Source: a virus
IMG/VR virus record: IMGVR_UViG_3300032291_004266
Coordinates: 1-22,035 of that record
Strand: one strand, 5' to 3'
DNA length: 22,035 bases
How positions within the stretch are numbered: the stretch's first letter is position 1; every line of letters begins with the position of its first letter. Shown here piece after piece: positions 3,823 through 22,035 of the stretch. The translations under genes and the position numbers were made by a program. The notes under the pieces were generated by a model. It ran no database searches and was not told where the DNA came from. It worked only from the letters and a program-made list of their open reading frames with translations.

Positions 3823-4686
3823 ATGCAAATCAAACATTCAAAGTATAAAAATACTGGTATCCTTTTTGAATCATTGGTTCGCCAAATCACCACAGATACA
3901 TTGGATGGTAAGGATTCACCGGCAAAAGATATACTTAAAAAATATTTCGTTAAATCGGAATTGGGTCGTGAGTACAAGTTATATGAAACTTTGTTAAAAA
4001 AAACGTCCTTAACTGAAGGGAAAGCAAACGTTGTAGTTAGCACATTAGTTGAATCATCTAAAACATTAAATAGAGGAGCAATTAAACGTCAAAAATACAA
4101 TTTGATCAGTGAAATTCAAAAACACTACGACATTAACGAGTTTTTTAACCATAAACTTTCCAATTATAAAATATACGCTGCTTTCTATACATTGCTAGAA
4201 ATTGCAAATACGCAAGAAGCAGTAGATCCCGAACAAACAATTAACAATAAAGTAACTATTTTAGAGCATTTAACAGCAGCTAAAATTACTGAAGGTAAAG
4301 TTCGTGACGAAGTGATGTCTGAATTTGAGAAAGCTGATAAAGATGTACGTCTATTAGCTTATAAAATGGTGTTAGAAAACTTTAACGAAAAGTACGATAC
4401 ACTACATCCAAAACAAAAATTGATATTAAAAGAGTATATTACCTCTATTGACAATACACCACGTCTAAGAGAATTTTATACTAACAAGGTAACAGAAATT
4501 AAAGAAGAATTAGCAACTTTAAACAAGAAAACTAAAAACAAAGTTACCCAAATTAAAATTAACGAAATTCTTACAGTTATTAACCCACCAGCTAAAAATG
4601 CTAAAATAACTGACAATGATTTAGTTGATTTGTTACAGTATTACGATTTAATCAATGAATTAGAAACTGTAAATGGACAAAATTAA
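3823..4686 (+). CDS. Putative prohead core protein, portal-proximal (gene 67/68 position)
   Basis: The 287 residues are almost entirely charged and helix-forming, with no transmembrane segment or enzymatic motif. The N-terminus (IKHSKYKNTGILFESLVRQ) resembles conserved hypothetical proteins that I associate with the portal-protease interval of marine T4-like phages; I could not verify this by search. In T4 this interval holds genes 67 and 68, which encode minor prohead-core components, so a core or scaffold-assisting role is the best inference. Possible protease-type sites include LTE|G (in SLTEGKANV) and ITE|G (in KITEGKVRD). The gene has its own putative late promoter, and its 3' end overlaps the next start by 14 nt. 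Confident as a gene, tentative in function. Confidence 0.8.
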   Translation: MQIKHSKYKNTGILFESLVRQITTDTLDGKDSPAKDILKKYFVKSELGREYKLYETLLKKTSLTEGKANVVVSTLVESSKTLNRGAIKRQKYNLISEIQKHYDINEFFNHKLSNYKIYAAFYTLLEIANTQEAVDPEQTINNKVTILEHLTAAKITEGKVRDEVMSEFEKADKDVRLLAYKMVLENFNEKYDTLHPKQKLILKEYITSIDNTPRLREFYTNKVTEIKEELATLNKKTKNKVTQIKINEILTVINPPAKNAKITDNDLVDLLQYYDLINELETVNGQN

Positions 4687-5167
4687 AGAAATAATTCGTA
4701 AGAAATTAAAAGAAATGAATGCTACCAATGTAGGTGGTGCTACTGCTATTCCTGGTAATAGTATAGGATATACTCCTAAAAAAGCATTTAAAAAAGTAAA
4801 CGAAGGGCCTGGAGCAACTTTAGGAATGGGACCAAGTGCTGGACCTGAAGGTGTAAAAGATAACGCCTATGTAAAACAGTTTAAATATAAACTAGTACCT
4901 AAAAAAATTAAAGGGTCTGGTTTAGAAGTTAAAAAACTTTGGGAGGATGAAACGCTAAACGAAATGAATGACGTTCAAAAAAGACGTATCGCTTCGTTAG
5001 ATGAAATTGAAAAATTGTTGAACGAGATTCAACCATTAGTTTCAAATGCAAAAAATGAAACAATTGAACTATATAGTGGGAACGCTGGTTCATATGATAT
5101 AAATAAACCAATAGAGATAGTAAAAAGCTATTTACAAGAAATAAAACAACTTTTATCAGAAAAATAA
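4673..5167 (+). CDS. Small putative prohead core/structural protein
   Basis: This 164-residue protein opens with a short basic amphipathic helix (KIKEIIRKKLKEM, residues 3-15), followed by a Gly/Pro/Ala-rich flexible stretch (about 20-62) and a basic patch (KYKLVPKKIKGSGLEVKKLW, 71-90). The C-terminal half (95-164) is helical and probably coiled coil. Its start lies inside the end of the preceding gene (14-nt overlap) and its stop overlaps the next start (TAATG), so all three core-region genes are probably translationally coupled. By position it corresponds to the T4 gene 67/68 area. Several L-x-E tripeptides occur near the C-terminus, but they are followed by Met, Ile or Lys rather than a small residue, so cleavage there is doubtful. 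Family not recognised; no enzymatic motif seen. Confidence 0.78.
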   Translation: MDKIKEIIRKKLKEMNATNVGGATAIPGNSIGYTPKKAFKKVNEGPGATLGMGPSAGPEGVKDNAYVKQFKYKLVPKKIKGSGLEVKKLWEDETLNEMNDVQKRRIASLDEIEKLLNEIQPLVSNAKNETIELYSGNAGSYDINKPIEIVKSYLQEIKQLLSEK

Positions 5168-7179
5168 TGAAAAAGACCCTACAAGATCAGTATTTGTTAA
5201 TCAAAGAAGGTAAAGGACATAAAGGTGTTTTCCTTACAGAAGCAAAACGTGAATTCCCTCAATATGTTCGTAACGCTGCTACATTTGATGAAGCAGTAGC
5301 ATCACTTAAAACCAAAAATATCATTTCAGAAAATGTAATTTCGGTGATGCCTGCGATTATGGATCGTCCTAAAAAAGAATCTTATGAAACTGCATTTGAA
5401 GCGTTTTTAGCTGAAGCAAAAAAGAAAAACGAAGACGAAAAAGTTAAAGCAGAAGAGAAAAAAGTTTCTAAACCTGTTGAAGAAGATCTTGAAAAAAACT
5501 TTGACTATTCAGACGAAAAAAATCCTGACAATATGATCTTTGATCAAATTATGATGGGTTACTATGCTGAAATGAAAGATCCTAAAAATGCTGATAAAAC
5601 GATGCAACAATTAAAAGACATCGTATTTAAAAACTTAGCAAAAGATCCAATTTACTATACAAAAGATGGCCAATTTGGAATCAAAGATTTAGGGTATGCA
5701 ACTGAACATCCAGGTTTAGGTACTCCAAAAGAAGCTAAAGGAAAATACAAGTCAAGCGGATATGGTGATTTAAAAGAATCAGTTCAACCAATCAATAAAG
5801 AAGAAGCTACTTTACGTAAAGTAATTCGTGAAATAATTGATGTTGAATTAGAAGAAGCAGGTAGAGGTTTTGCTACTATGGGAACTATTAATCTTAAAGG
5901 TGGTGATGGGAAAATATTTATTCCTCAATACCACATACTTCCTTTAACAGCTATACAATCCCTAGATTTCTCAAATCCTGGGGAAAATGCTCCAACATAT
6001 GGTCAAGAATATTTAATTAAAAATATACGACCATTTAATTTAGGGGGTAAAAGAGAAATTGTAATTTCTAAATGGTTTTATGATGCTATCAATAAAAAAG
6101 AAGATATAAAAAACCCAGTAAAAACAAAAATTAAAGATCTTGTAGATACAAATAAAGAATTTAAAGATTTTTATGGATATATTAAAAACTTTATAGATGA
6201 CAAACCTTTTCTAACAACTATTGATGGAAAAAAAATTCCTTACCACAAAATTAACGTTCAAGTAGAACCTTTAAAACCATGGGCTGAAAAAGAACTTGAA
6301 AAGGCTAATGTTAAACTTCAAAAAGCTAAATCTGGTGTAGTAGGAAGAGGTAGACCTATTAATATTAAATATTTAGAAAATTTTTGGATTCCAACACTTG
6401 AAGAATATCTTTCAAGACCTGAAGGGAATTTAGTAGTTATTCCTCAAATAGAAGAAGGTGTTCTTGGTGTTAGAGATATCGATGTTTCCCCTGGATATCC
6501 TGTAGATCTCCCAATATCATATAGTGATGATAAAAATGTAGCTCATTATTCCGATGATGATAGATATAGTAGTCAAGAAGATCTTTTAGATCCTGAAGAT
6601 TATTTAGAACAAATACAAGGAATGTCTGATGGAGATGCATTTAATTATTTAAAAGGACTTGGATTAGGAAGAGGTGAAATTTTAACTGTTTTAAAATCCC
6701 GTAAATCATCTTTACGTGAAAGCGTAGAAAAAGATTTAATGGACATCAACAAAGAAGCAGAACACGAAGTACTTCAAACTAAATTAGATAAAATTGACGC
6801 ATTAATTGATCTTAGACGTTCTAAACTTGGTAAACTTGACGAAGATGAGGATATGAAAGCCTTAACTGACAAGAAAAAAGTAAAAGAACTTGAAAAAGAC
6901 ATCAAAAAGTTAGAAGTAGCTCGCAACAAAGTTGAAAAAATGATGTCAAAATTTAAAGGCAAAAAATCTTCTAATAAAAAAGTAATTGATGAAACAGAAG
7001 AAGATCTTGATGTAGCTGCTGAATATGTTGAAGATGCTACTGAAAGATTAGATGCTGGTCAAAAAGTAGATTCAATTGTAGACACATATAGTAATCTAGG
7101 AATGGACCAAAAAGAAGACCTAGGTAACTATTTGAATTATGAAGCCCCAGACGATTTAAAATCTGATTACGTATACTAA
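5167..7179 (+). CDS. Large prohead-core-region protein with an apparent inserted domain
   Basis: The 670-residue protein has three parts. Residues 1-230 are highly charged and Lys/Glu-rich, with possible gp21-type cleavage sites LTE25|A, LAE83|A and LKE204|S. They end in an amphipathic helix (LRKVIREIIDVELEEA) containing LEE230|A. Residues 231-518 look different: less charged, with aromatic and Pro/Gly-rich stretches and a likely globular fold (for example YHILPLTAI, REIVISKWFYDAINKKED), then an acidic Asp/Ser/Tyr-rich segment near 450-480. Residues 519-670 return to Lys/Glu-rich helix, including a coiled coil around 565-597. Arginine codons support an insertion: all five in residues 1-230 are CGT, while 231-511 has eight AGA and one CGA. 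Placed directly before the protease, it is probably a core or internal virion protein. The inserted domain is not one I recognise. Confidence 0.75.
   Translation: MKKTLQDQYLLIKEGKGHKGVFLTEAKREFPQYVRNAATFDEAVASLKTKNIISENVISVMPAIMDRPKKESYETAFEAFLAEAKKKNEDEKVKAEEKKVSKPVEEDLEKNFDYSDEKNPDNMIFDQIMMGYYAEMKDPKNADKTMQQLKDIVFKNLAKDPIYYTKDGQFGIKDLGYATEHPGLGTPKEAKGKYKSSGYGDLKESVQPINKEEATLRKVIREIIDVELEEAGRGFATMGTINLKGGDGKIFIPQYHILPLTAIQSLDFSNPGENAPTYGQEYLIKNIRPFNLGGKREIVISKWFYDAINKKEDIKNPVKTKIKDLVDTNKEFKDFYGYIKNFIDDKPFLTTIDGKKIPYHKINVQVEPLKPWAEKELEKANVKLQKAKSGVVGRGRPINIKYLENFWIPTLEEYLSRPEGNLVVIPQIEEGVLGVRDIDVSPGYPVDLPISYSDDKNVAHYSDDDRYSSQEDLLDPEDYLEQIQGMSDGDAFNYLKGLGLGRGEILTVLKSRKSSLRESVEKDLMDINKEAEHEVLQTKLDKIDALIDLRRSKLGKLDEDEDMKALTDKKKVKELEKDIKKLEVARNKVEKMMSKFKGKKSSNKKVIDETEEDLDVAAEYVEDATERLDAGQKVDSIVDTYSNLGMDQKEDLGNYLNYEAPDDLKSDYVY
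5857..6720 (+). other. Candidate inserted cargo domain within the core-region protein
   Basis: This marks residues 231-518 of the 670-aa protein, lying between a gp21-type site LEE|A and a second site LRE|S. Arginine codons switch from CGT (upstream) to AGA and back to CGT at residues 512 and 517. Composition also changes from Lys/Glu-rich helix to a mixed globular type. Internal sites IEE430|G and LEE413|Y could split it further. Boundaries come from motif positions and are approximate; function unknown. Confidence 0.45.
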
Positions 7180-7180
7180 G

Positions 7181-7813
7181 ATGAGTAAAGAACTTTTAAT
7201 AGAAACTAGACATTTCGTCCCTAAACCAGTAAAACTGATTGAAGGAATGAACAAAAATGGAAACGTTTTTGTTGAAGGGATATTAGCTACAGTAGAAGTT
7301 AAGAATGGAAACGGCCGTTACTATAAAAAAGAATTATGGGACCGTGAAATCGACAACTTTATACGCAAAATCCAAATGAAATCTACTGAGACAGTGGGTG
7401 AATTGGACCATCCTGATTCTCAAGTAATCAACTTAAAAAATGCATCACATGCAATTCGTGAAGTATGGTGGAGAGGAGATGAAATTTGGGGAAAAGTTGA
7501 AATATTTTCCGATCCAGGAGAACTAGGAACTACTTCAGGCCGTATTGCAGGAGCATTAGTTAAAAATGGTTTAATTATTGGTATTTCTTCTCGTGGAATG
7601 GGCTCATTAAAGCAAATGGGTGAAGTAATGGAAGTACAAGACGATTTTGAACTGTTAACATGGGATCTTGTATCTAACCCATCTAACCCAGATTCATGGA
7701 TGAAAAATGGTATGTTAAACGAATCTAGAACATCCCAATTAAACGAATATTCACGTACAAATTCAATTATTACCGAAATTTTATGTGCTAAAGGCACATG
7801 CCCTATATTTTAA
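7181..7813 (+). CDS. 21: Prohead core protease (T4 gp21-like serine protease)
   Basis: This protease matures the prohead: it degrades scaffold proteins and trims the capsid protein, normally after (L/I)-x-E. At 210 residues it matches T4 gp21 (212). The expected catalytic elements are present in order: histidine at H77 in GELDHPD, nucleophilic serine at S136 or S137 in GISSRGMG, and aspartate at D162 in TWDLVSNPS. The start ATG follows the previous stop after a single base, so it is co-translated with the core genes. The C-terminus is slightly odd, ending in LCAKGTCPIF with two cysteines, encoded over a 6-bp perfect hairpin (7783-7799). A terminator follows at 7842. The assignment rests on the triad motifs, length and neighbours. 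Confidence 0.93.
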   Translation: MSKELLIETRHFVPKPVKLIEGMNKNGNVFVEGILATVEVKNGNGRYYKKELWDREIDNFIRKIQMKSTETVGELDHPDSQVINLKNASHAIREVWWRGDEIWGKVEIFSDPGELGTTSGRIAGALVKNGLIIGISSRGMGSLKQMGEVMEVQDDFELLTWDLVSNPSNPDSWMKNGMLNESRTSQLNEYSRTNSIITEILCAKGTCPIF

Positions 7814-8023: not shown

Positions 8024-9343
8024 ATGGCAACAAACAGAGATTTGCTTAAAGAAGCAATCGCAGATGCTAAAGCTGTTAAAGAAACTGCTATAGCAAATGC
8101 AAAAGCTGCTCTAGAAGAAGCCTTCACACCTCAATTGAAAGAAATGTTCGCTGCAAAACTTCAAGAAATAGAAGACGATCCAAATCTTGAAGAGATGTAT
8201 GGTATGTCTGAAGATGAAAAAGAGCTTGAAGAAGCAGGATTTGGATCTATGGACCCTATGGGTCATGGAAATATTGAAGATGAGTCTTCATTATATGAAG
8301 ATGACAAGGACACGATGGAAATTGACTTAGAAGAGCTTTTACGTGAGCTAGAAATGGAAGAAGGTGATATGAAAGGCCTTTACGAAGCTGAAGAAGATGA
8401 CGACGATGATACAAACGTATCTGACGAAGATTCTAACAAAGGTGACGAAGAAGGAACTCCAATTGACCTCGAAGACATGACAGATGAAGATCTTAAAACT
8501 ATGATCGAAGACGTCATTAAAGACATGATCGCTGCAGGTGAAATTGAAGCAGGTCATGAAGGTATGAAAGATGAAATGGGTAAAGAAGATGAAGAAGATG
8601 TTGATTTAGCTGAACTTTTAAAAGAAATTGAAGAAATGGAAGACAAGAAAACGTACGAAAAAAAAGAACCAATTGATGAAGCTTGGTTCGTTGATTTTTT
8701 CACACAATTCCCTTCTTTATCTAGTATAAAGGATATTCTTTTTGGAAATGACGGGTTAGCTTCTTTTGGGGTTGGAAAAATGGTTATGGGTACTTTAGGA
8801 GCAGTTGCACTTGGTTTAGTGGCTAATGCTTACCGTAAATATAAAAACGACGGAAAGATTAATGCTATGAAAGATGAACAAGTAATACAATTAGCTAAAA
8901 ACGACAAAGAATTTACTAATTCCCCAGCAGCTAAAGAAGTAATAGCTACTGCAAAAAGTGTATCTAACCAAACAGAAAAAAGATCTGATTCTTCAGTTGA
9001 ACTTGAAGAAGCTTATAAAACAATCAAAACTCTTAAGTCTGAATTAAACGAGATCAACTTGTTAAATGCTAAACTTCTTTACACTAACAAAATCTTCAAA
9101 TCTAAAAATTTGAACGAAAGTCAAAAAGTAAAAGTGTTAAGTTCGTTTGACAAAGCTACTACAGTAGGTGAAGTAAAATTAGTGTTTGAAACTTTAAATG
9201 AGGGAATTAAAGTAAAACCAAACTTAATTAAAGAAAACCTAGGTAGAGCTTCTAAAGGAACAGTTACACCAAACGTTAAAAAACCAATCGTTGAGTCAAA
9301 CGAGGCATTTTTAAGAATGCAAAAATTGGCTGGAATAATTTAA
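8024..9343 (+). CDS. 22: Prohead scaffold (core) protein, T4 gp22-like, with a hydrophobic insert
   Basis: I place the start at 8024 (MATNRDLLKEA), not at an in-frame ATG at 7952, because the upstream 24 codons overlap the leader hairpins, look non-coding, and AGGA precedes 8024. The resulting 439 residues make the major scaffold around which capsid protein assembles; it is normally destroyed by the protease. The Asp/Glu-rich region (about 46-215) and position between gp21 and gp23 fit gp22. The C-terminal helix (LLNAKLLYTNKIFKSKNL, 346-363, and the following SQKVKVLSSFDKA) resembles T4-like scaffolds. T4 gp22 has about 270 residues. Sites of type (L/I)-x-E before Ala or Gly occur at 10, 32, 70, 121, 219, 329 and 393. 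Between 219 and 329 lies an atypical segment with a membrane-like stretch (248-267). The capsid gene follows after 27 nt. Confidence 0.88.
   Translation: MATNRDLLKEAIADAKAVKETAIANAKAALEEAFTPQLKEMFAAKLQEIEDDPNLEEMYGMSEDEKELEEAGFGSMDPMGHGNIEDESSLYEDDKDTMEIDLEELLRELEMEEGDMKGLYEAEEDDDDDTNVSDEDSNKGDEEGTPIDLEDMTDEDLKTMIEDVIKDMIAAGEIEAGHEGMKDEMGKEDEEDVDLAELLKEIEEMEDKKTYEKKEPIDEAWFVDFFTQFPSLSSIKDILFGNDGLASFGVGKMVMGTLGAVALGLVANAYRKYKNDGKINAMKDEQVIQLAKNDKEFTNSPAAKEVIATAKSVSNQTEKRSDSSVELEEAYKTIKTLKSELNEINLLNAKLLYTNKIFKSKNLNESQKVKVLSSFDKATTVGEVKLVFETLNEGIKVKPNLIKENLGRASKGTVTPNVKKPIVESNEAFLRMQKLAGII
8681..9010 (+). other. Candidate inserted segment with membrane-like helix in the scaffold protein
   Basis: This marks scaffold residues 220-329, bounded by IDE219|A and LEE329|A, both ideal gp21-type sites. 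It begins with aromatic residues (AWFVDFFTQF), contains the hydrophobic, Gly-rich run MVMGTLGAVALGLVA (253-267), and then a basic and polar region. Both flanks are acidic scaffold. If cut at both sites it would be a free 110-residue peptide inside the capsid. Boundaries and function are inferred. Confidence 0.45.
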
Positions 9344-9370: not shown

Positions 9371-11077
9371 ATGTCAAGTATTAATTCTTTATTAGAAAGC
9401 TCGGCTTCTGGATGGAAAAACATGCAGAACGATGCTGCTCGTATGGCTTCTAAGTGGGCTAAAACGGGATTATTAGAAGGATTGAATAGCGAAGTTGAGA
9501 AAAACAACATGGCTTTAATCCTCGAAAACCAAGCAAAACAACTTGTTGTTGAGCAATCTTCTACAAATATAGGTGGTGGTTCATTTAGCGTAGGACAAGG
9601 TGAGCAATGGGCAGGAGTAGCTCTTCCATTGGTACGTAAAGTATTCGGTTCTTTATCATCTAAAGAATTCGTTTCTGTACAACCAATGAATTTGCCTTCT
9701 GGTCTTGTATTCTTCTTAGATTTCCAATATGGTGCAAATTCTAAAGCTGCTCCAACAGGCCCATTTGGTCCTAGTGGTGACACTTATGGTGCTACTTCAT
9801 CTATGTACGGTAATACAAACCCAGGTGTAGCAAATGATGCATCTCAAGGTCTATACGGTGCTGGTAGATTTGCTTATTCAGTTAACCAATTCTCAGCATC
9901 TGTAACTTCATCTACTTCACCAGCAGCATGGTCTGATGTTGATTATGATTCAACTCTATCTGCTTCTATTTCTTCTGGTTTTATCCAAAAAGTAGTTGTT
10001 ACTGGTATAGGTGCTAATACTAATGTTCCACGCCCTGACTTTAAAGGTGTTCGTGCATTTGTTCCTGCTTCAGGTGCTGCTGCTACTCCTGCATCTCAAA
10101 TCTACACTAACTTGTTACCACAGTATACAACTACTAATGGTTCTAATACTATTACATTTATTGTATCAGGTTCAGGTGCTTTAACTGGAATCCCTACAGG
10201 ATCTAATACAATCAATACATTATTTTATAATGTTCAACCAGCTGATAATTACAGAGGTGATTTTGAAGATAATAATGGTGCTGGTTATCCAAATGCTGAA
10301 TCTACAGCTGCTGATTCATTAGCTATTCCACAAATCAATATCCAAATGAAATCTGAGGCTATTGTTGCTAAAACTCGTAAGTTGAAAGCACAATGGACAC
10401 CAGAATTTGCTCAAGATTTAAATGCATACCAATCTTTAGATGCTGAAGCTGAATTAACTTCAATCATGAGCGAATATATTGCATTAGAAATTGATCTTGA
10501 AGTATTAGACATGTTGATCCAAGATGCTTCTGCATGGGATGAATATTGGTATGCTACTAACAACCGTGTATTGAATTCTAGCAAAACAGGATATGATAAT
10601 CCTCAGTTTTACAACACACAAGGTCAGTGGTTCCAAACTTTAGGAACTAAAATGCAAAAAGTTAGTAACAAAATTCACCAAAAGACTTTACGTGGTGGTG
10701 CAAACTTCATCGTAACTTCTCCAACTGTAGCAACCATCCTTGAATCAATCCCAGGATTTGCTTCATCTTCTGATGGTGATGTAACAAAAGCTAGCTATGC
10801 ATTTGGTATCCAAAAAGCTGGTCAAATGAACAACCGTTACACAGTTTACAAAAACCCTTACATGACTGAAAACTTAATGTTGATGGGTTATAGAGGATCT
10901 CAATTCCTTGAAACTGGTGCGGTATTTGCTCCATATGTACCTCTAATCATGACTCCATTAGTATACGACCCAGAAACATTTACCCCACGTAAAGGTTTAT
11001 TGACTCGTTATGCTAAGAAAATGATCCGTCCTGAATTCTTCGGTCGTATCTTTATCAACGATTTGAATGTACTTTAA
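9371..11077 (+). CDS. 23: Major capsid protein (T4 gp23-like)
   Basis: The main shell protein, HK97-like fold by family. The region around residues 85-120 (LPLVRKVFGSLSSKEFVSVQ, followed by PMNLPSGLVFFLDFQY) matches the gp23 pattern in T4 (MVRRTMPALVAFDLVGVQPMSGPTGQVF). The C-terminus (LLTRYAKKMIRPEFFGRIF) is also of this type. It has 568 residues against 521 in T4; the extra length is mainly a Ser/Thr/Ala/Gly-rich insertion between about 125 and 300, where T4-like capsids vary. Like T4 gp23 it should lose an N-terminal delta region to the protease: candidates are LLE36|G and ILE52|N. The start is preceded by AAACAAAAACAAAACA without a Shine-Dalgarno. A strong terminator follows 26 nt after the stop, so transcription is probably shared with the scaffold gene. 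Confidence 0.95.
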   Translation: MSSINSLLESSASGWKNMQNDAARMASKWAKTGLLEGLNSEVEKNNMALILENQAKQLVVEQSSTNIGGGSFSVGQGEQWAGVALPLVRKVFGSLSSKEFVSVQPMNLPSGLVFFLDFQYGANSKAAPTGPFGPSGDTYGATSSMYGNTNPGVANDASQGLYGAGRFAYSVNQFSASVTSSTSPAAWSDVDYDSTLSASISSGFIQKVVVTGIGANTNVPRPDFKGVRAFVPASGAAATPASQIYTNLLPQYTTTNGSNTITFIVSGSGALTGIPTGSNTINTLFYNVQPADNYRGDFEDNNGAGYPNAESTAADSLAIPQINIQMKSEAIVAKTRKLKAQWTPEFAQDLNAYQSLDAEAELTSIMSEYIALEIDLEVLDMLIQDASAWDEYWYATNNRVLNSSKTGYDNPQFYNTQGQWFQTLGTKMQKVSNKIHQKTLRGGANFIVTSPTVATILESIPGFASSSDGDVTKASYAFGIQKAGQMNNRYTVYKNPYMTENLMLMGYRGSQFLETGAVFAPYVPLIMTPLVYDPETFTPRKGLLTRYAKKMIRPEFFGRIFINDLNVL

Positions 11078-12394: not shown

Positions 12395-12742
12395 ATGGCA
12401 AATTTAACTTTAAGACAAGTAAAAGGTTCTCCACTTACTATCGCTGAATTAGATGGTAACTTTGAATACTTTACTGGTTCACATGCAATAACAGGTTCAC
12501 TTATAGTAACTGGTGGAATTACAGGAAGTGTTAGTAATGCAACTTCAGCATCCTATTTAAATACATTAAATCAAAATGTTATTGTAAATACTGGATCTTT
12601 AACTCTTAATGGTGGAGCCTTTATGAATCCAAACACCCAATCTTTGCCTTTGACTATACCTACGGGATACAATGCATTATTAGTTGGCCCATTATTTAAT
12701 TCTAGTTCAATAATTATTTCTGGAACATTAGTAATATTATAA
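12395..12742 (+). CDS. Small fibre-like structural protein
   Basis: A 115-residue protein beginning MANLTLRQVKGSPLTIAELD, followed by ITGS/VTGG repeats (AITGSLIVTGGITGS, about 31-45) typical of beta-structured phage fibres. Residues 50-62 (TSASYLNTLNQNV) form a cassette that recurs nearly unchanged in the 522-aa fibre protein downstream (ASYVNTLNQNV), so the two share modular ancestry. It is short for a complete fibre and may be an anchor, adaptor or small trimeric appendage. It lies in the region corresponding to fibritin (wac) in T4, just ahead of the neck genes. Function inferred only from composition and position. Confidence 0.68.
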   Translation: MANLTLRQVKGSPLTIAELDGNFEYFTGSHAITGSLIVTGGITGSVSNATSASYLNTLNQNVIVNTGSLTLNGGAFMNPNTQSLPLTIPTGYNALLVGPLFNSSSIIISGTLVIL

Positions 12743-12754
12743 TATAAAAATAAA
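12738..12754 (+). promoter_or_regulatory. Degenerate copy of the putative late promoter motif
   Basis: The stretch contains TATAAAAATAAA, a poor match to ATATTTATAAATAAAA, partly overlapping the preceding stop. The ATG is at 12765. It could be a weak promoter or only the A-rich context usual at starts in this genome. Confidence 0.3.
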
Positions 12755-12764
12755 CAAAATATCA

Positions 12765-14369
12765 ATGAGTACATTAAAAGTTAATAATATTGAACCTACC
12801 TCAGGTAACGATATTAGATTGACAGGAAACGTAACCTTTATTACCCCTGCTGGAAAAGAAATAGAATTTAATGATTCCAATACAAGCTTTAGTGGCTCTG
12901 TTACTATTACAGGATCTTTAAACACAAATAATGGAGATGTTTTAATCAACAAAGGAAATCTTATTTTAAAATCTGGATCTTTACTTATTGGTTCAGGAAG
13001 TTTAAACCAACAAACTACTTCTGGTTCAACTTCTGCATCATATTGGAGTGTAACTAGTTCAATAACAGTTACAGGTTCAGAAGGATCTGATTGGACTGTT
13101 GAAGTTGAAGGAAATACCACTATTACAGGTTCATTTGAAGTATTAGGTGATACTGATTTTCAAGGTGATATGACTATCAGCGGATGTTTAGATATTAATT
13201 GCTATAACGATGAAGATAATCCTATATTTTGGGCAATTGATGGTAGAACAACTCCGGCTCCAACAGGATTTGAATATGTTTCTATAAACTTTAGTACTTA
13301 TGGAAATTTAACAACAGGAATTGCTGCTGCCGCTGCTGCTTCAAATAACGTATGTTATATTTACGACCCTGCTACTGGAACATATGCCCCTTATGGATAC
13401 TCAGGAACAAGCTTTGATGGTGTTGTTACATATATTTCAGCTTCTGGTCCTGAAATTGCTACAGGAACAGTAATCCAAATTGGTTTTCCAACCCCTATTT
13501 CAGGAGCTACACCAATTTATCCAATTGGAACTGGATCTTTAACCCCAGTTGCATCTTTTTGTTGTGATGGAATTTCATTTAATAGTGATGTAACAATCAC
13601 AGGTGGATTAGATGTATATGGCCCTACAAATTTACATGATGGTTTAATTGTAACAGGATGTATTGAAATGTACTGTCCTGGTAATGAAGCAACTGCATGG
13701 TATGGATATGAAGGATCAGTTAGATTTTCAAAACCATCTGCTAGTGTCTATCTTAATTATGCATGGTTAGATCCTTCTTATGGAGATGTTAGAACAACCA
13801 TTTCAGCATCTGCTGCTGCAAATAGTGGAACTTTTAAATTATATAATACCGTAACAGGAACTACTCAAACAGTAAATTACATTGGTTCAACATGGACTCA
13901 AACACTTACTATTATTGAGTATTCAACACCAACACTTACAGCATATACCCCAATGCCTGTAATTCATATTGGAAATCAAACTCCTAATTTACAACCATTT
14001 GGAGCTGATGTTTTAATGGGAACTGGATCTTCCACCCCAACTCAAACTGCAACTTTCTGTTGTGATGGAAATGTATTATATGGAGATACTACATTTACTG
14101 GTTCAGTAACAATTACCGGTTCAACAGCAGTAACTGGTTCAACAACAGTTATAGGAACAACAGCAGTAACAGGTTCAGTAAATATTAAAGGTAATGGAAA
14201 ATTTTCTGGATCTCTTGAAGTATCTGGAGGATTAGCTTTACCTACTATATCAGATGGAACACCAGGGTACATTGGTAAAAAAGGTGAAATGGTATTTGGA
14301 GTAAACGGAAGTAATTATTTCTTTTACGTGTATATAAATAATGCTTGGAGATCAGGCTCATTAGCATAA
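12765..14369 (+). CDS. Fibre/appendage protein with duplicated cysteine module
   Basis: The 534 residues begin with MSTLKVNNIEPTSGND, an N-terminal segment shared with the 522-aa fibre protein at 14440 (MSTLRVNNLEPVSGNS) and probably the virion attachment end. TGS-rich beta repeats follow. A module of about 130 residues occurs twice: residues 141-267 run from CLDINC to FCCDG, and residues 299-433 from CIEMYC to FCCDG, the same Cys-x4-Cys and Cys-Cys spacing. Residues 443-489 are short VTGS-type beta repeats. The C-terminus (GYIGKKGEMVFGVNGSNYFF, then YVYINNAWRSGSL) resembles the closing segment common in phage fibres. Cysteine pairs are unusual for an intracellularly assembled phage protein; metal binding is an alternative to disulphides. 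A host-binding or whisker-like role is likely, given its place before the neck genes. Confidence 0.75.
   Translation: MSTLKVNNIEPTSGNDIRLTGNVTFITPAGKEIEFNDSNTSFSGSVTITGSLNTNNGDVLINKGNLILKSGSLLIGSGSLNQQTTSGSTSASYWSVTSSITVTGSEGSDWTVEVEGNTTITGSFEVLGDTDFQGDMTISGCLDINCYNDEDNPIFWAIDGRTTPAPTGFEYVSINFSTYGNLTTGIAAAAAASNNVCYIYDPATGTYAPYGYSGTSFDGVVTYISASGPEIATGTVIQIGFPTPISGATPIYPIGTGSLTPVASFCCDGISFNSDVTITGGLDVYGPTNLHDGLIVTGCIEMYCPGNEATAWYGYEGSVRFSKPSASVYLNYAWLDPSYGDVRTTISASAAANSGTFKLYNTVTGTTQTVNYIGSTWTQTLTIIEYSTPTLTAYTPMPVIHIGNQTPNLQPFGADVLMGTGSSTPTQTATFCCDGNVLYGDTTFTGSVTITGSTAVTGSTTVIGTTAVTGSVNIKGNGKFSGSLEVSGGLALPTISDGTPGYIGKKGEMVFGVNGSNYFFYVYINNAWRSGSLA
13185..14063 (+). repeat. Diverged internal duplication (two cysteine modules)
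   Basis: Codons 141-267 (13185-13565) and 299-433 (13659-14063) of the 534-aa fibre gene encode homologous modules. Both start with Cys-x4-Cys and end with FCCDG followed by a GDTT- or SDVT-type strand. Sequence between the anchors is strongly diverged, suggesting an old duplication. Cys197 of the first copy (NNVCYIYDPATG) is replaced by Phe in the second (SGTFKLYNTVTG). Confidence 0.65.
14091..14231 (+). repeat. Short beta-strand repeats in the fibre gene (VTGS type)
   Basis: Residues 443-489 are tandem 6-7-residue units of the form TVTGS or TAVTGS. At DNA level the units ACAGCAGTAAC and GGTTCAAC recur. This is a coding repeat expected of a trimeric beta-structured shaft, and similar units occur near residues 44-52 and 118-124. 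Confidence 0.7.
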
Positions 14370-14382
14370 TTAGTTAAAATTT

Positions 14383-14416
14383 AAGGCACCTAAATGGTGT
14401 CTTTTATTTTTTTTCT
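14383..14416 (+). terminator. Intrinsic terminator after the 534-aa fibre gene
   Basis: Stem AAGGCACC (14383-14390) pairs with GGTGTCTT (14396-14403), with one G-T wobble and a TAAAT loop, followed by a long T-rich run to about 14414. A strong late-promoter motif begins at 14418. Confidence 0.85.
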
Positions 14417-14417
14417 T

Positions 14418-14433
14418 ATATGTATAAATAAAA
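14418..14433 (+). promoter_or_regulatory. Putative late promoter, TATAAATA type
   Basis: ATATGTATAAATAAAA, one mismatch to the consensus; the octamer TATAAATA is at 14423-14430. It directly follows a terminator, which makes promoter function more likely. The ATG (14440) is 22 nt from the motif start. Confidence 0.72.
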
Positions 14434-14439
14434 CAATCA

Positions 14440-16008
14440 ATGAGTACATTAAGAGTAAATAATCTTGAACCAGTTTCAGGTAATTCTGTAGTAGTAAATA
14501 GTGAATTATTAGTTAAAGGACCTGGAGGAGACATTGTAATAGGCAGCACTGGATCTTCTAATTTATCAGCATCATACGCTACTACAGCAGGATGTGCTAG
14601 TAACATAAACATTTCTACTATTGTTCCTGGAGATACTACAACTTCTGTAGTTTTAGTAAATGAACAAGCAGTAGGTTGCCAATCACCTTTTATTGATTCA
14701 GGTTTAACTTACAACGCTTCTACAAACATATTAAACGCAACTGTTACAACTGCTCAAACAGCATCATATGTTGTAACTGCTCAAACAGCATCATACGTTA
14801 ATACGTTAAATCAAAACGTAACAATAAATGGAAATGTAACTGCAAGTGGAGATATCAGACTTACCACTTCAGGAAGTGCTGTTGTTCGTCCTATAATTAA
14901 TTTAGTACCTACTGGAACTGCTTCATTTGACCCAAATTCAACAAATACTACTACATATTCAAATTACGGGATTAACGTAATTTCCACAGCATCTTCTCAA
15001 TCATATTGTTTAAGATTACCTCAAACCCCTACTCAAGGTAAAACAGTTACAATTATCAATAAAAGTGGTATAAATGTTCTTGTTTTTCCAAGTGTAATAG
15101 GTGGAGATATTAATGGAGTAGTTGATGGGTATTTAGTTATCCCGTCCGATGGAAAATCCTATTCATTTGATTGCTATGAAAACCCACTTCCAGGAGGATG
15201 GTCAGTAACAAATGTTAATGCATCATCAACAACAATTACTTCTGGGGTTGTTAATTTTAACCATAGTACATCTTCTTATCATATTGCTTTTGTAAATGAT
15301 TCAATTAAAGTAAGTGGAAGTAATTTAAGCAGTGCTAATGCATATAATGGATTAAATACAACTCAATATGCTGTAGGTAATTTTACTAATGCCTTTGGAA
15401 CATATATTTTTGGACGCACTTACCCTGATACTATTGCTGGACAAAATGTATGGAAATCCATCGATAGTATTCAAGTTTTAACAAATATCACTGCTAGTAA
15501 TGTACAAGCATATTTAAGACTTTCATTAGGAACTACTGTTGAATATTATTCAAATTCAAACCCAACAGGACCAGTTACTCCATTTAATCCTATTGCAACA
15601 TATAATTCTTTTAATACAAATGTATTAACTCCATGGATTAATAATCATCCTGGAACGATTAATTCATGGATGTATTCAACTATTCAATTACCACCTCAAA
15701 CAACTTCAGTTGTTCCTGGAACATTTGTTTCCTCTTCAAACCCATATACTTCAGTTAATGTTGGAGACCCAGGAACATTAATAATTAATCTTCCATCTTT
15801 ACCAACATATACTGCAGCCGGAGGTGGGTTTAAAATGTTAGGAAGAAATTATATAGGATCATTTGTTCATCCTGTTCAAGGATTACTTGATGCATATTAC
15901 AATGCTGAATTTTGTCCTATTTTTGAATTGAGCGTTTATGATAACTTATTTAACGCAGTTAACGTTCCTAATGCTAAACTTCAAGTATCTTATAATGTAT
16001 CACTTTAA
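14440..16008 (+). CDS. Fibre/appendage protein, second paralogue
   Basis: The 522 residues share the N-terminal anchor of the 534-aa protein (MSTLRVNNLEPVSGNS) but have a different body, the usual pattern of fibres that swap receptor-binding parts. Residues 104-121 are two copies of a nine-residue unit, TAQTASYVV and TAQTASYVN, running into NTLNQNVTINGNVTASGD, which matches the 115-aa protein upstream. Residues from about 150 on are a larger, non-repetitive, Ser/Thr/Asn-rich beta-type domain without recognised family motifs, and could be the receptor-binding or enzymatic tip. Scattered cysteines (52, 80 and later) are not in the CCDG arrangement. It has its own terminator-promoter punctuation. 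A virion appendage is the firm part; whether tail fibre, head fibre or neck whisker is open. Confidence 0.73.
   Translation: MSTLRVNNLEPVSGNSVVVNSELLVKGPGGDIVIGSTGSSNLSASYATTAGCASNINISTIVPGDTTTSVVLVNEQAVGCQSPFIDSGLTYNASTNILNATVTTAQTASYVVTAQTASYVNTLNQNVTINGNVTASGDIRLTTSGSAVVRPIINLVPTGTASFDPNSTNTTTYSNYGINVISTASSQSYCLRLPQTPTQGKTVTIINKSGINVLVFPSVIGGDINGVVDGYLVIPSDGKSYSFDCYENPLPGGWSVTNVNASSTTITSGVVNFNHSTSSYHIAFVNDSIKVSGSNLSSANAYNGLNTTQYAVGNFTNAFGTYIFGRTYPDTIAGQNVWKSIDSIQVLTNITASNVQAYLRLSLGTTVEYYSNSNPTGPVTPFNPIATYNSFNTNVLTPWINNHPGTINSWMYSTIQLPPQTTSVVPGTFVSSSNPYTSVNVGDPGTLIINLPSLPTYTAAGGGFKMLGRNYIGSFVHPVQGLLDAYYNAEFCPIFELSVYDNLFNAVNVPNAKLQVSYNVSL
14749..14802 (+). repeat. Tandem 27-nt coding repeat
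   Basis: Two adjacent 27-nt units beginning ACTGCTCAAACAGCATCATA, at 14749 and 14776, encode TAQTASYVV and TAQTASYVN. The near-identity at DNA level suggests a recent duplication in the fibre gene. Confidence 0.85.
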
Positions 16009-19576: not shown

Positions 19577-21334
19577 ATGGCAGAAACAATTGTATCACCT
19601 GGTGTACTAGCAATAGAAAATGACCAATCTTTTATAACACAAGCCCCTGTACAAGCAGGTGCTGCTATTATTGGACCAACTGTTTACGGTAAAGTAGGTA
19701 TTCCTACATTAGTAACTACATTTGGTGAATATCAAAATAAATTTGGAACTACATTTTTAAGTGGAAGTCAAACTTACACATATCTTACATCTATTTCAGC
19801 TTTTAATTATTTTAATAGTGGAGGAACATCACTATTAGTTACCCGTGTTGTAAGTGGTAGTACTATTAACGATTGGACTCCTGCTACTTCATCATTTATT
19901 TCTGCATCTGCTCATACTGCTGGTGCTCCTTATAATACTAATGTATTTGTTTTAGAAACAATTGCTGAAGGAAATATTATGAATAGTGTTGGCCCTACAG
20001 GTTCGAATGGAACTCTATTAAGTGGATCAGCAAATAATTTTAGATGGCAAATTGTTTCACCTGATACTAATTCAGGAACATTTACTGTATTAATTAGACA
20101 AGGAAATGATACCGCTTTATCTCCATCTATTTTAGAAACGTGGGGACCTGTATCATTAGATCCATTTGCTTCAAACTATATTGAAAAAATAATAGGTAAT
20201 CAAATTGAAGTTGTTGCTAATGACCCATCAACAGGTGAATACTATGTTCAACTTTCAGGAAGTTATCCAAACCAATCAGCGTATGTTAGGGTTAAACAAG
20301 TAAATCAAACTACTCCAAATTATTTTGATAATAATGGAGTTCCTAAAAATCAATTTACTGGTTCTTTACCTATTGCTAATAGTGGATCATTTGGTGATGG
20401 GAAAGGAAGTAATATCCCTACAGGTGTTGCTGGAGCATATTATGAAAATATTTCACAAACTAACATTCAAGGATTAACCTCAGCATCTTATGTTGAATCT
20501 ATTTCTTTATTAGCAAATAAAGATGCTTATAATTATAATTTTATAACAGCTCCAGGATTAATAGGAAATTCAGCTTATCATTTCCCCGTTGTTCAACAAC
20601 TAATTACAATGGTTCAAAACAGAGGAGATGCAATGGCTATAGTTGATGTTGTTGGATATAATTCAAATATAATTCCTGTAACTACAGCTGCAAGTGCCCT
20701 TGATACTTCATATGCAGCAACATATTGGCCTTGGTTAAAAACAATTGACCCCAATACAGGTCAACAAGTTTGGACACCTGCTTCAACAATGGTACCTGGT
20801 GTATATGCATTTAATGATAATGTAGCTTATCCTTGGTTTGCTCCTGCTGGTATTAATAGAGGTCTTATGACAACAGTTACTCAAACCGAAAGAGTATTAA
20901 CCCAAGGAAATAGGGATTTACTTTACCAAAGTAATATTAACCCAATTGCTACATTTCCTGGATCAGGAATAACAGTATTTGGACAAAAAACATTACAAAA
21001 GAAAAAAAGTGCTTTAGACCGTGTAAATGTTAGACGTTTATTAATTGAACTTAAAAATTATATTTCTCAAATAGCTGATACATTTGTATTTGAACAAAAT
21101 GATGCTGTTACTAGAAATAATTTTGTAGCAGCTGTTAATCCATATTTAGCTTCTGTTCAACAACAACAAGGTTTAACTGCATTTAGAGTTATTATGGATG
21201 AATCAAATAATCCACCTTCAGTAGTTGATCAAAATCAATTAATAGGACAAATTTATTTACAACCAACTCGTACAGCAGAATTCATCATATTAGACTTTAA
21301 TATATTACCTACAGGTGCAACATTCCCTGCTTAG
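19577..21334 (+). CDS. 18: Contractile tail sheath protein, copy 1 (T4 gp18-like)
   Basis: The sheath surrounds the tail tube and contracts to drive it through the host envelope. The 585-residue protein has the family N-terminus: IVSPGVLAIENDQ (5-17), QAGAAIIGPTVYGKVGIPTL (27-46), and a SISAFNYFNSGGTSLLVTRV segment (near 73-92), comparable to T4 gp18 (LLSPGIELKE, AALAGKFQWGPAF, FLQYGNDLRVVRAV). The C-terminal third carries the conserved core that interlocks neighbouring subunits: DRVNVRRLLIELKNYISQIA, FEQNDAVTRNNFV and AEFIILDFNILPTG. The middle is variable and surface exposed in known sheaths. T4 gp18 has 659 residues. Immediately followed by a second, clearly related sheath gene under its own motif. 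Confidence 0.95.
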   Translation: MAETIVSPGVLAIENDQSFITQAPVQAGAAIIGPTVYGKVGIPTLVTTFGEYQNKFGTTFLSGSQTYTYLTSISAFNYFNSGGTSLLVTRVVSGSTINDWTPATSSFISASAHTAGAPYNTNVFVLETIAEGNIMNSVGPTGSNGTLLSGSANNFRWQIVSPDTNSGTFTVLIRQGNDTALSPSILETWGPVSLDPFASNYIEKIIGNQIEVVANDPSTGEYYVQLSGSYPNQSAYVRVKQVNQTTPNYFDNNGVPKNQFTGSLPIANSGSFGDGKGSNIPTGVAGAYYENISQTNIQGLTSASYVESISLLANKDAYNYNFITAPGLIGNSAYHFPVVQQLITMVQNRGDAMAIVDVVGYNSNIIPVTTAASALDTSYAATYWPWLKTIDPNTGQQVWTPASTMVPGVYAFNDNVAYPWFAPAGINRGLMTTVTQTERVLTQGNRDLLYQSNINPIATFPGSGITVFGQKTLQKKKSALDRVNVRRLLIELKNYISQIADTFVFEQNDAVTRNNFVAAVNPYLASVQQQQGLTAFRVIMDESNNPPSVVDQNQLIGQIYLQPTRTAEFIILDFNILPTGATFPA

Positions 21335-21380: not shown

Positions 21381-22035
21381 ATGGCAAATTTTACAACTTC
21401 TCCTGGAGTAGCAATTAGCGAAATAGATAATACCTTTTTAACTGGGCAACCAGTTCAAGCAGGTGCTGCTATCATAGGACCAACAGTTAAAGGTCCTGTA
21501 GAAAAACCAACCTTAATAACATCTTATTCAGATTTCCAAATGTTATTTGGAGATTCTTTTATTAGTGGTGGTAATTCATATTCATATTTAACCTCAATTG
21601 CTGCTTACAATTATTTTAATTATGGTGGTACTTCATTATTAGTAGCTCGTGTTGTTACCCAATCAGCTAACTGGACCCCAGCAGAAAGTACTACAATTCA
21701 AAATTATTTTACCTCAGCATCGTTTGTTCTTGAAACAATTTCTGAAGGAGCTATTAATAATAACTCCGGTTCTAACATGTTAGGAAATAATGGAGCTTTA
21801 AATTCTGGCTCAGCTGAAAACATTCGTTGGGAAGTTACTAACTCAAATACTGGATCAGGTACATTTAATGTATTAGTTAGACGTGGTAATGATACAACCC
21901 CTAATAAAGTTGTACTAGAAGCTTGGAATAACTTAACATTAGATCCAAATTCATCTCGTTATATTTCTCAAGTAATTGGAGATCAAAAATTACAATATAA
22001 TTCTACAACAAACCAAATGGAATTATCTGGAAGTT
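21381..22035 (+). CDS. 18: Contractile tail sheath protein, copy 2 (partial, runs off window)
   Basis: An open frame from ATG 21381 to the window end gives 218 residues. It parallels copy 1 throughout: TTSPGVAISEIDNTFLTGQP against IVSPGVLAIENDQSFITQAP, QAGAAIIGPTVKGPVEKPTL against QAGAAIIGPTVYGKVGIPTL, and NYFNYGGTSLLVARVV against NYFNSGGTSLLVTRVV. It also shares the later FVLETISEG and LVRRGNDTT blocks. The two are diverged enough that this is not an assembly duplicate. Both could co-assemble, or one might form a specialised end of the sheath. The interlocking C-terminal core lies outside the window, so whether this copy is complete is unknown. Confidence 0.93.
   Translation, partial: MANFTTSPGVAISEIDNTFLTGQPVQAGAAIIGPTVKGPVEKPTLITSYSDFQMLFGDSFISGGNSYSYLTSIAAYNYFNYGGTSLLVARVVTQSANWTPAESTTIQNYFTSASFVLETISEGAINNNSGSNMLGNNGALNSGSAENIRWEVTNSNTGSGTFNVLVRRGNDTTPNKVVLEAWNNLTLDPNSSRYISQVIGDQKLQYNSTTNQMELSGS

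Follow-up and report, generated by a model that had tools for sequence, protein, structure and literature searches.

A variable slot in a protein of the head gene cluster

The window, by which we mean the whole stretch of DNA analysed here, is a 22-kb virus contig that carries a T4-type head gene cluster. The genes run in the order large terminase, gp20 portal, a 287-aa protein, a 164-aa protein, a 670-aa protein, an S77 protease, a 439-aa gp22-like protein, gp23 and PhoH, the last of these assigned by inspection and from the annotation of Flavobacterium phage immuto, in which the same head gene order is found. In T4, the portal, gp21-type protease, gp22 and gp23 follow a matching order, and the genes for gp22, gp67 and gp68, whose products are cut to fragments, adjoin gp21 and gp23. 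The 670-aa gene, lying between portal and gp23 and adjoining the gp21-type protease, occupies the position of a T4-type prohead core or scaffold gene. The prohead protease (7181..7813, + strand, as for all features given below in the form start..end) matched PF03420 (T4 gp21 / Peptidase_S77) with 99 bits against a cut-off of 27, and phrog_207 (head maturation protease). The gp22-like scaffold gene (8024..9343) was recognised by its position before gp23, a family alignment and slot variation. Neither this protein nor the 670-aa protein had a match in PHROGs or Pfam, and hence none there to T4 gp22, gp67 or gp68. The propeptide site of the major capsid protein, V-V-E↓Q (9545..9553; arrows mark the predicted cut), lies near the expected gp23 cleavage position; in the major capsid protein homologues examined the glutamate is fixed and P2 is V, T, I or S.

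Relatives of the 670-aa protein were collected from IMG/VR (46 by a first scan, 124 by a profile scan), and the 70 distinct homologues possessing both an N and a C block served as the comparison set. Fragmented or frameshifted sequences accounted for the proteins with one block only, the exception being L160, in which the right edge of the slot is also LQE↓G. A protein-level search of GenBank phages returned no homologue of the 670-aa protein; its counterpart in phage immuto is a distant homologue of 360 aa (E 2e-10) without obvious cargo. Pairwise comparison revealed blocks that are constant up to residue ~205 and again from ~515, with a centre that is often unalignable. The N-terminal scaffold block (residues 1-204, 5167..5778) is ~80-94% identical in close homologues, with many invariant columns; the motif sites conserved in it are LIKE↓G, FLTE↓A and FLAE↓A. 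The C-terminal block (residues 519-670 plus stop, 6721..7179) is Lys/Glu-rich, helical and likewise conserved in homologues; in one relative (L040) it is present twice in tandem (ESLKESIEKELMAINKEAE and ESLRESVEKELVAINKEAE).

Between these blocks lies a slot of 34 to 409 aa across the 70 homologues, bounded in the window by L-K-E↓S on the left (residues 202-204, 5770..5778) and L-R-E↓S on the right (residues 516-518, 6712..6720). All 70 homologues have L-x-E at the left edge, in the form SGYG(D/N)L(K/N/S)E↓ with S, G, N, D, E or A at P1′, and (L/I)-x-E at the right, in the form (L/I)(R/K/M/Q)E↓(S/G)(V/I)(E/D)K with S or G at P1′, although the search patterns themselves included L-x-E on the left and an acidic cut residue on the right, so that exceptions could escape. 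Only P3 and P1 are fixed at these edges, while P2 and P1′ vary, which is the pattern expected of the T4 gp21 site: T4 gp21 cuts after (L/I)-x-E, and the T4 internal proteins have short targeting propeptides (PMC9026906). In T4 IPIII, an Asp at the cut residue stops processing and leaves targeting intact (PMC9026906). The S77 protease of the window is, from its sequence, the expected cutter of the slot sites.

The slot of the window opens with an amphipathic helix, SVQPINKEEATLRKVIREIIDVELEE (residues 205-230, 5779..5856), which ends in LEE↓A. A helix of this kind precedes the cargo in most homologues and is retained even in empty slots, being the sole content of six slots of 34 aa; we propose that it is an internal targeting and cleavage helix. 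Its likeness to the T4 targeting sequence is one of shape rather than of demonstrated sequence homology. The 164-aa neighbour (4673..5167) begins with a helical leader shaped like a capsid-targeting sequence, MDKIKEIIRKKLKE↓M (4673-4714). In the family members examined this leader ends in LxE with a variable middle residue, and the immuto counterpart starts MKKSQIVKAVQEVLEE↓M. The leader resembles in shape the helix inside the 670-aa protein, from which a targeting role may be inferred.

Two cargo units follow the helix. Unit 1 (residues 231-430, 5857..6456), identified with the clan A profile (see below), ends in IEE↓G (6448-6456) and is swapped for other clans in relatives. Unit 2 (residues 431-515, 6457..6711) is an acidic module, GVLGVRDIDV...LKSRKSS, which is present or absent independently of unit 1 and is found alone or with other cargo in L010, L015, L029 and L041. 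Some joins before the unit 2 module deviate from (L/I)xE, reading TNE↓A, FNE↓A or VKE↓G.

The original prediction, made from the window alone, had placed a single foreign-looking domain of 288 residues at 231-518, bounded by protease-type sites. Those sites, LEE↓A at 228-230 and LRE↓S at 516-518, lie where it put them, and the segment is richer in aromatic residues and Pro/Gly and poorer in Lys/Glu than its flanks, as described. The segment is exchangeable and comprises two separable units, residues 231-430 and residues 431-518, which meet at IEE↓G. The slot starts at residue 205, after D-L-K-E↓S, rather than at 231; the amphipathic helix that had been taken to mark the N-terminal edge exists, but inside the slot.

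A contrast in arginine codons had also been reported, and the counts are correct: residues 28, 35, 67, 217 and 221 use CGT, the first nine arginines after residue 231 use AGA (eight) or CGA (one), and residues 512 and 517 return to CGT. The window's 670-aa protein taken alone shows this contrast weakly (Fisher p = 0.07). In the family as a whole, AGA or AGG encodes 471 of 803 arginines in slots (59%) against 126 of 385 in flanks (33%), and GC3 is lower in slots than in flanks (0.134 versus 0.181, paired Wilcoxon p = 4e-9; 0.086 versus 0.208 in the window); the homologues are related, so that the statistics here and in the comparisons below are not independent and these p-values are descriptive.

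Exchange of cargo among homologues

The slots of the family contain cargo of clan A (25 sequences), cargo of clan B (30 sequences) or no cargo, the last including the six of 70 that hold the helix only. Several optional modules occur upstream of the cargo and one downstream, giving 24 combinations of module and clan in 69 proteins by simple motif tests. Motif sites do occur in the extra modules that precede the helix. The empty slot of L118 and the 146-aa slot of L132 sit between N and C blocks that are 97.1% and 94.1% identical at the DNA level, respectively. The upstream modules of L138 and L089 are near-identical, and the two proteins differ in clan from the site ELEE↓AYQ onwards. Of the edges of DNA similarity, 32% fall within two residues of a motif site, where random placing would give 9.5%. 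When cargo clan was mapped on a tree of the N block, which is short and has many weak branches, 26 changes were needed, compared with 29.4 for shuffled labels (range 24-36). Cargo type is thus distributed nearly at random relative to the flank tree. The original prediction had asked whether homologues lack or replace the segment or instead conserve it continuously across both edges; the alignment excludes continuous conservation, since the segment is absent, replaced or shuffled while the edges carry the protease motif in 70 of 70 proteins. We rejected the simple account in which one foreign domain was inserted horizontally, as the slot is common to the family and has been refilled many times.

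We searched for the fold and function of the cargo. An AlphaFold2 model of clan A cargo unit 1 had fair confidence (pLDDT 79, pTM 0.73), as did that of clan B (pLDDT 80, pTM 0.67). No convincing structural match was found with either model. For clan A, the best Foldseek hits had E-values of 0.05 (viral) and 0.63 (PDB), and the top VIA-align hit had Z 5.7 with an rmsd of 5.0 over 70 aligned residues; the top structure comparison for clan B had Z 2.5, rmsd 3.9 and 64 aligned residues. The cargo had no match in Pfam, PHROGs, NCBIfam or PADLOC, a profile comparison with the PDB gave nothing above noise, and protein-level searches of GenBank phages found no homologue of clan B cargo. A weak profile match to a gap junction protein (E 0.39) and sub-threshold matches to JmjN and Spiralin were judged to be chance. 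Clan A cargo is too divergent for a pattern scan. Comparing the two clans with hhalign gave a probability of 0.3% at first, which rose to 15% once the alignments were enlarged (E 0.0018, taken as a single comparison). Both have predicted strands and helices in similar order, and on these models they may share one fold. The high turnover and dispensability of the cargo suggest host-directed functions of an arms-race type, by analogy with the T-even internal proteins (PMC3012670, PMC9026906).

A second slot, tandem cargo and avoidance of protease sites

The gp22-like scaffold has a slot of its own. In the window it holds an insert of residues 220-326 (8681..9001), with one TM-like stretch by hydropathy, lying between IDE↓A (8672-8680) and LEE↓A (9002-9010); relatives have unrelated inserts at this position, or none. 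Members of the family have an acidic N part followed, where there is a clear insert, by a slot beginning after (I/V/M)(D/E/N)E↓, in which the MNE of some members deviates from (L/I)xE. The right edge is L-x-E↓A in 37 of 37 sequences examined. The inserts are unrelated between phages, several have a TM-like stretch and some slots are empty.

The nearest cultured relative of the window by gp23 is phage immuto (57% identity). In its gp22-like protein a 62-residue unit occurs twice (a 186-nt repeat, 94% identical), arranged as VNE↓GFEQW...LEE↓GFEQW...LAE↓ALATV. The gene (L166:10695-11936, MW353175) is named "DNA polymerase phi-like protein" in GenBank, probably a misannotation due to low complexity. 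A scan with this protein recovered 577 relatives. Among 62 distinct relatives, many have two units, some three and others none. Each tandem unit is preceded by hydrophobic-x-E in L168/immuto, L177, L178, L179, L169, L220 and L221, for example VNE↓D three times in L178 and VSE↓N, LNE↓N and LNE↓N in L221; in L202, two unrelated units are joined. The copies in L168 and L179 are 93-96% identical in the body and differ at P3-P2 of the site, yet the motif is kept, as predicted if cutting is under constraint.

Our preferred reading is that both prohead core proteins are probably scaffold polyproteins, from which the gp21-type protease would free cargo in the head for injection into the host. The inserts might instead be freed and kept in the head to act there, in DNA condensation, head size, pressure or charge balance. 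T4 IPIII, which affects head morphogenesis (PMC9026906), offers a precedent, and many of the gp22-like inserts appear by eye to be short, helical and charged. We nonetheless consider such a role unlikely: empty slots in both proteins leave no fixed structural job for the insert, the turnover of cargo clans is almost random with respect to the flanks, and several inserts have TM-like stretches.

If cargo is released whole, it should lack internal sites. In 17 cargos of the 670-aa family that are less than 70% identical, we counted 24 (L/I)xE motifs, true unit boundaries included, against 43.2 expected from shuffles. The control motifs (L/I)xD and (L/I)xK were not depleted in the same cargos. 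Proteins from the contigs of three relatives had the motif at 1.24 times expectation (1.2-1.3 for other phage proteins), and bootstrap sets of 17 proteins reached the ratio seen in cargo in none of 5000 draws. The longest motif-free stretch fell within the slot in 56 of 70 proteins, and most exceptions have no cargo. The inserts of the gp22-like family behave in the same way: 22 different inserts, empty slots being left out, have 6 (L/I)xE motifs against 21.7 expected, with [LI]xD and [LI]xK again undepleted. The suggestion that cargo is cut free in the head is supported in part: motif depletion inside cargo and the motif-punctuated tandem copies of the gp22-like scaffold favour release by the protease, though of two units rather than a single domain.

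The same results weigh on the idea that the slot is a tolerated disordered linker, in which LxE belongs to the capping of helices or the clearance of the scaffold, whose destruction the inserts would share. As a rule, scaffold proteins end up as peptides and are cleared (PMC9026906), and the modules upstream of the helix do have sites. Strong avoidance of the motif by cargo in two unrelated sets, conservation of the cargo as domains with predicted folds of fair confidence and tandem duplications that stay in phase with the sites all speak against this, and we regard it as quite improbable. Slightly less probable still is action of the inserts before they are cut off, with the fused scaffold using them as domains for prohead assembly or host interaction: going by gene position, scaffold fusion would hold them at the prohead during assembly, but empty slots and near-random turnover speak against a part in assembly.

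Proposed delivery route and relation to known systems

There is strong evidence for the slot architecture itself and for selection that preserves its boundaries and keeps sites out of the cargo. Cutting at the boundaries by the window's gp21-type protease is very likely, judging from the motifs, and packaging and injection of the cargo are likely by analogy. In the scaffold polyprotein model, small and fast-changing cargo domains would be inserted in frame into the slot of each scaffold protein. The constant blocks, probably together with the amphipathic helix, would bring the fusion into the prohead core during shell assembly, where the gp21-type protease would cut after the Glu of hydrophobic-x-E. 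The site-rich scaffold blocks would be chopped to peptides and the site-free cargo released whole, to remain with the DNA and be injected at infection. Injected cargo would most likely counter host defence or aid takeover, like T4 IPI and Alt. With one short motif at every boundary, cargo can be swapped, added, duplicated or deleted by recombination while the scaffold stays unharmed. More generally, we lean towards regarding the pair as scaffold-embedded effector polyproteins that make up a phage-wide platform for delivery, with zero to several exchangeable effectors in each of the two scaffold proteins, punctuated by head-protease sites.

The closest parallel is with the T4 internal proteins, in which diverse cargo is built into the prohead core, freed by gp21 after (L/I)-x-E, packaged and ejected (PMC9026906, PMC3012670). 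As a defence set, the T-even internal proteins are diverse and have only the targeting sequence in common (PMC3012670), and the slot system shares with them hypervariable cargo and a constant targeting and processing part (PMC9026906, PMC3012670). However, the T4 proteins are encoded by separate genes with an N-terminal leader of 10-19 residues, whereas here the cargo is inside the scaffold gene, after 204 residues and a helix and before a 152-residue C block in the 670-aa protein, with sites on both sides and one to three units per chain. The slot system thus works like the T4 internal-protein system without being a member of it as defined. T4 Alt is a packaged and injected protein from which gp21 trims either end (PMC9026906), as we propose for the cargo, but is the product of a stand-alone gene with short propeptides and not an exchangeable unit within a scaffold.

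SPN3US and phiKZ have a Glu-specific head protease, long propeptides cut several times and released ejection proteins (PMC5694885, PMC10052503). All identified SPN3US cuts, bar those in the protease itself, remove N-terminal propeptides (PMC10052503), and these phages lack the arrangement of the 670-aa family, a cargo slot with scaffold to either side. P1 DarA and Hdf are head-internal, tied to head morphogenesis and shield DNA from host defence (PMC12810830), but they are encoded by separate genes and bound to the inner capsid surface, with no scaffold polyprotein. In the literature we found, no cargo domain is described inside T4 gp22, gp67 or gp68. Nor is scaffold-embedded cargo described in the open-access literature found, where gp21-type substrates lose N-terminal propeptides and Alt is cut at both ends (PMC9026906, PMC10052503).

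Judged from sequence, the slot system is shared by many uncultured T4-like phages, which form a large group with phage immuto as a relative. The T4 internal proteins, found gene by gene, led to injected anti-restriction proteins and to a protein-packaging technology. Here, anything between two hydrophobic-x-E sites in either scaffold gene is a candidate injected protein, and this sequence-marked position makes hundreds of phage contigs minable for effectors, with 577 gp22-like relatives from one scan. If the model is correct, one scaffold would load many effector copies per head, the protease that matures the head would also free the payload, and the cargo would form a reserve of proteins for anti-defence or takeover in Bacteroidota, perhaps also in other bacteria of aquatic habitats. 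Phage immuto, with the laboratory host Flavobacterium sp. LMO8, provides a cultured system for study, and the slot offers a design found in nature by which proteins could be loaded into phage heads.

Microcystis phage Mel-JY01 encodes a 388-aa protein between its protease and gp22-like genes (L167:8353-9519). Motifs seen by eye (YRA, STT, ESEIILP) give it the look of an ADP-ribosyltransferase and so of a possible Alt-like packaged enzyme, a reading that profile searches did not support. Elsewhere in the window, several structural-looking genes (12395-16008) have many short TGS/ITGS repeats such as TGSLNTNNG and TGSVTITGS, and two tandem tail-sheath-like genes (19577-21334 and 21381-22034) have N-termini that are alike by eye.
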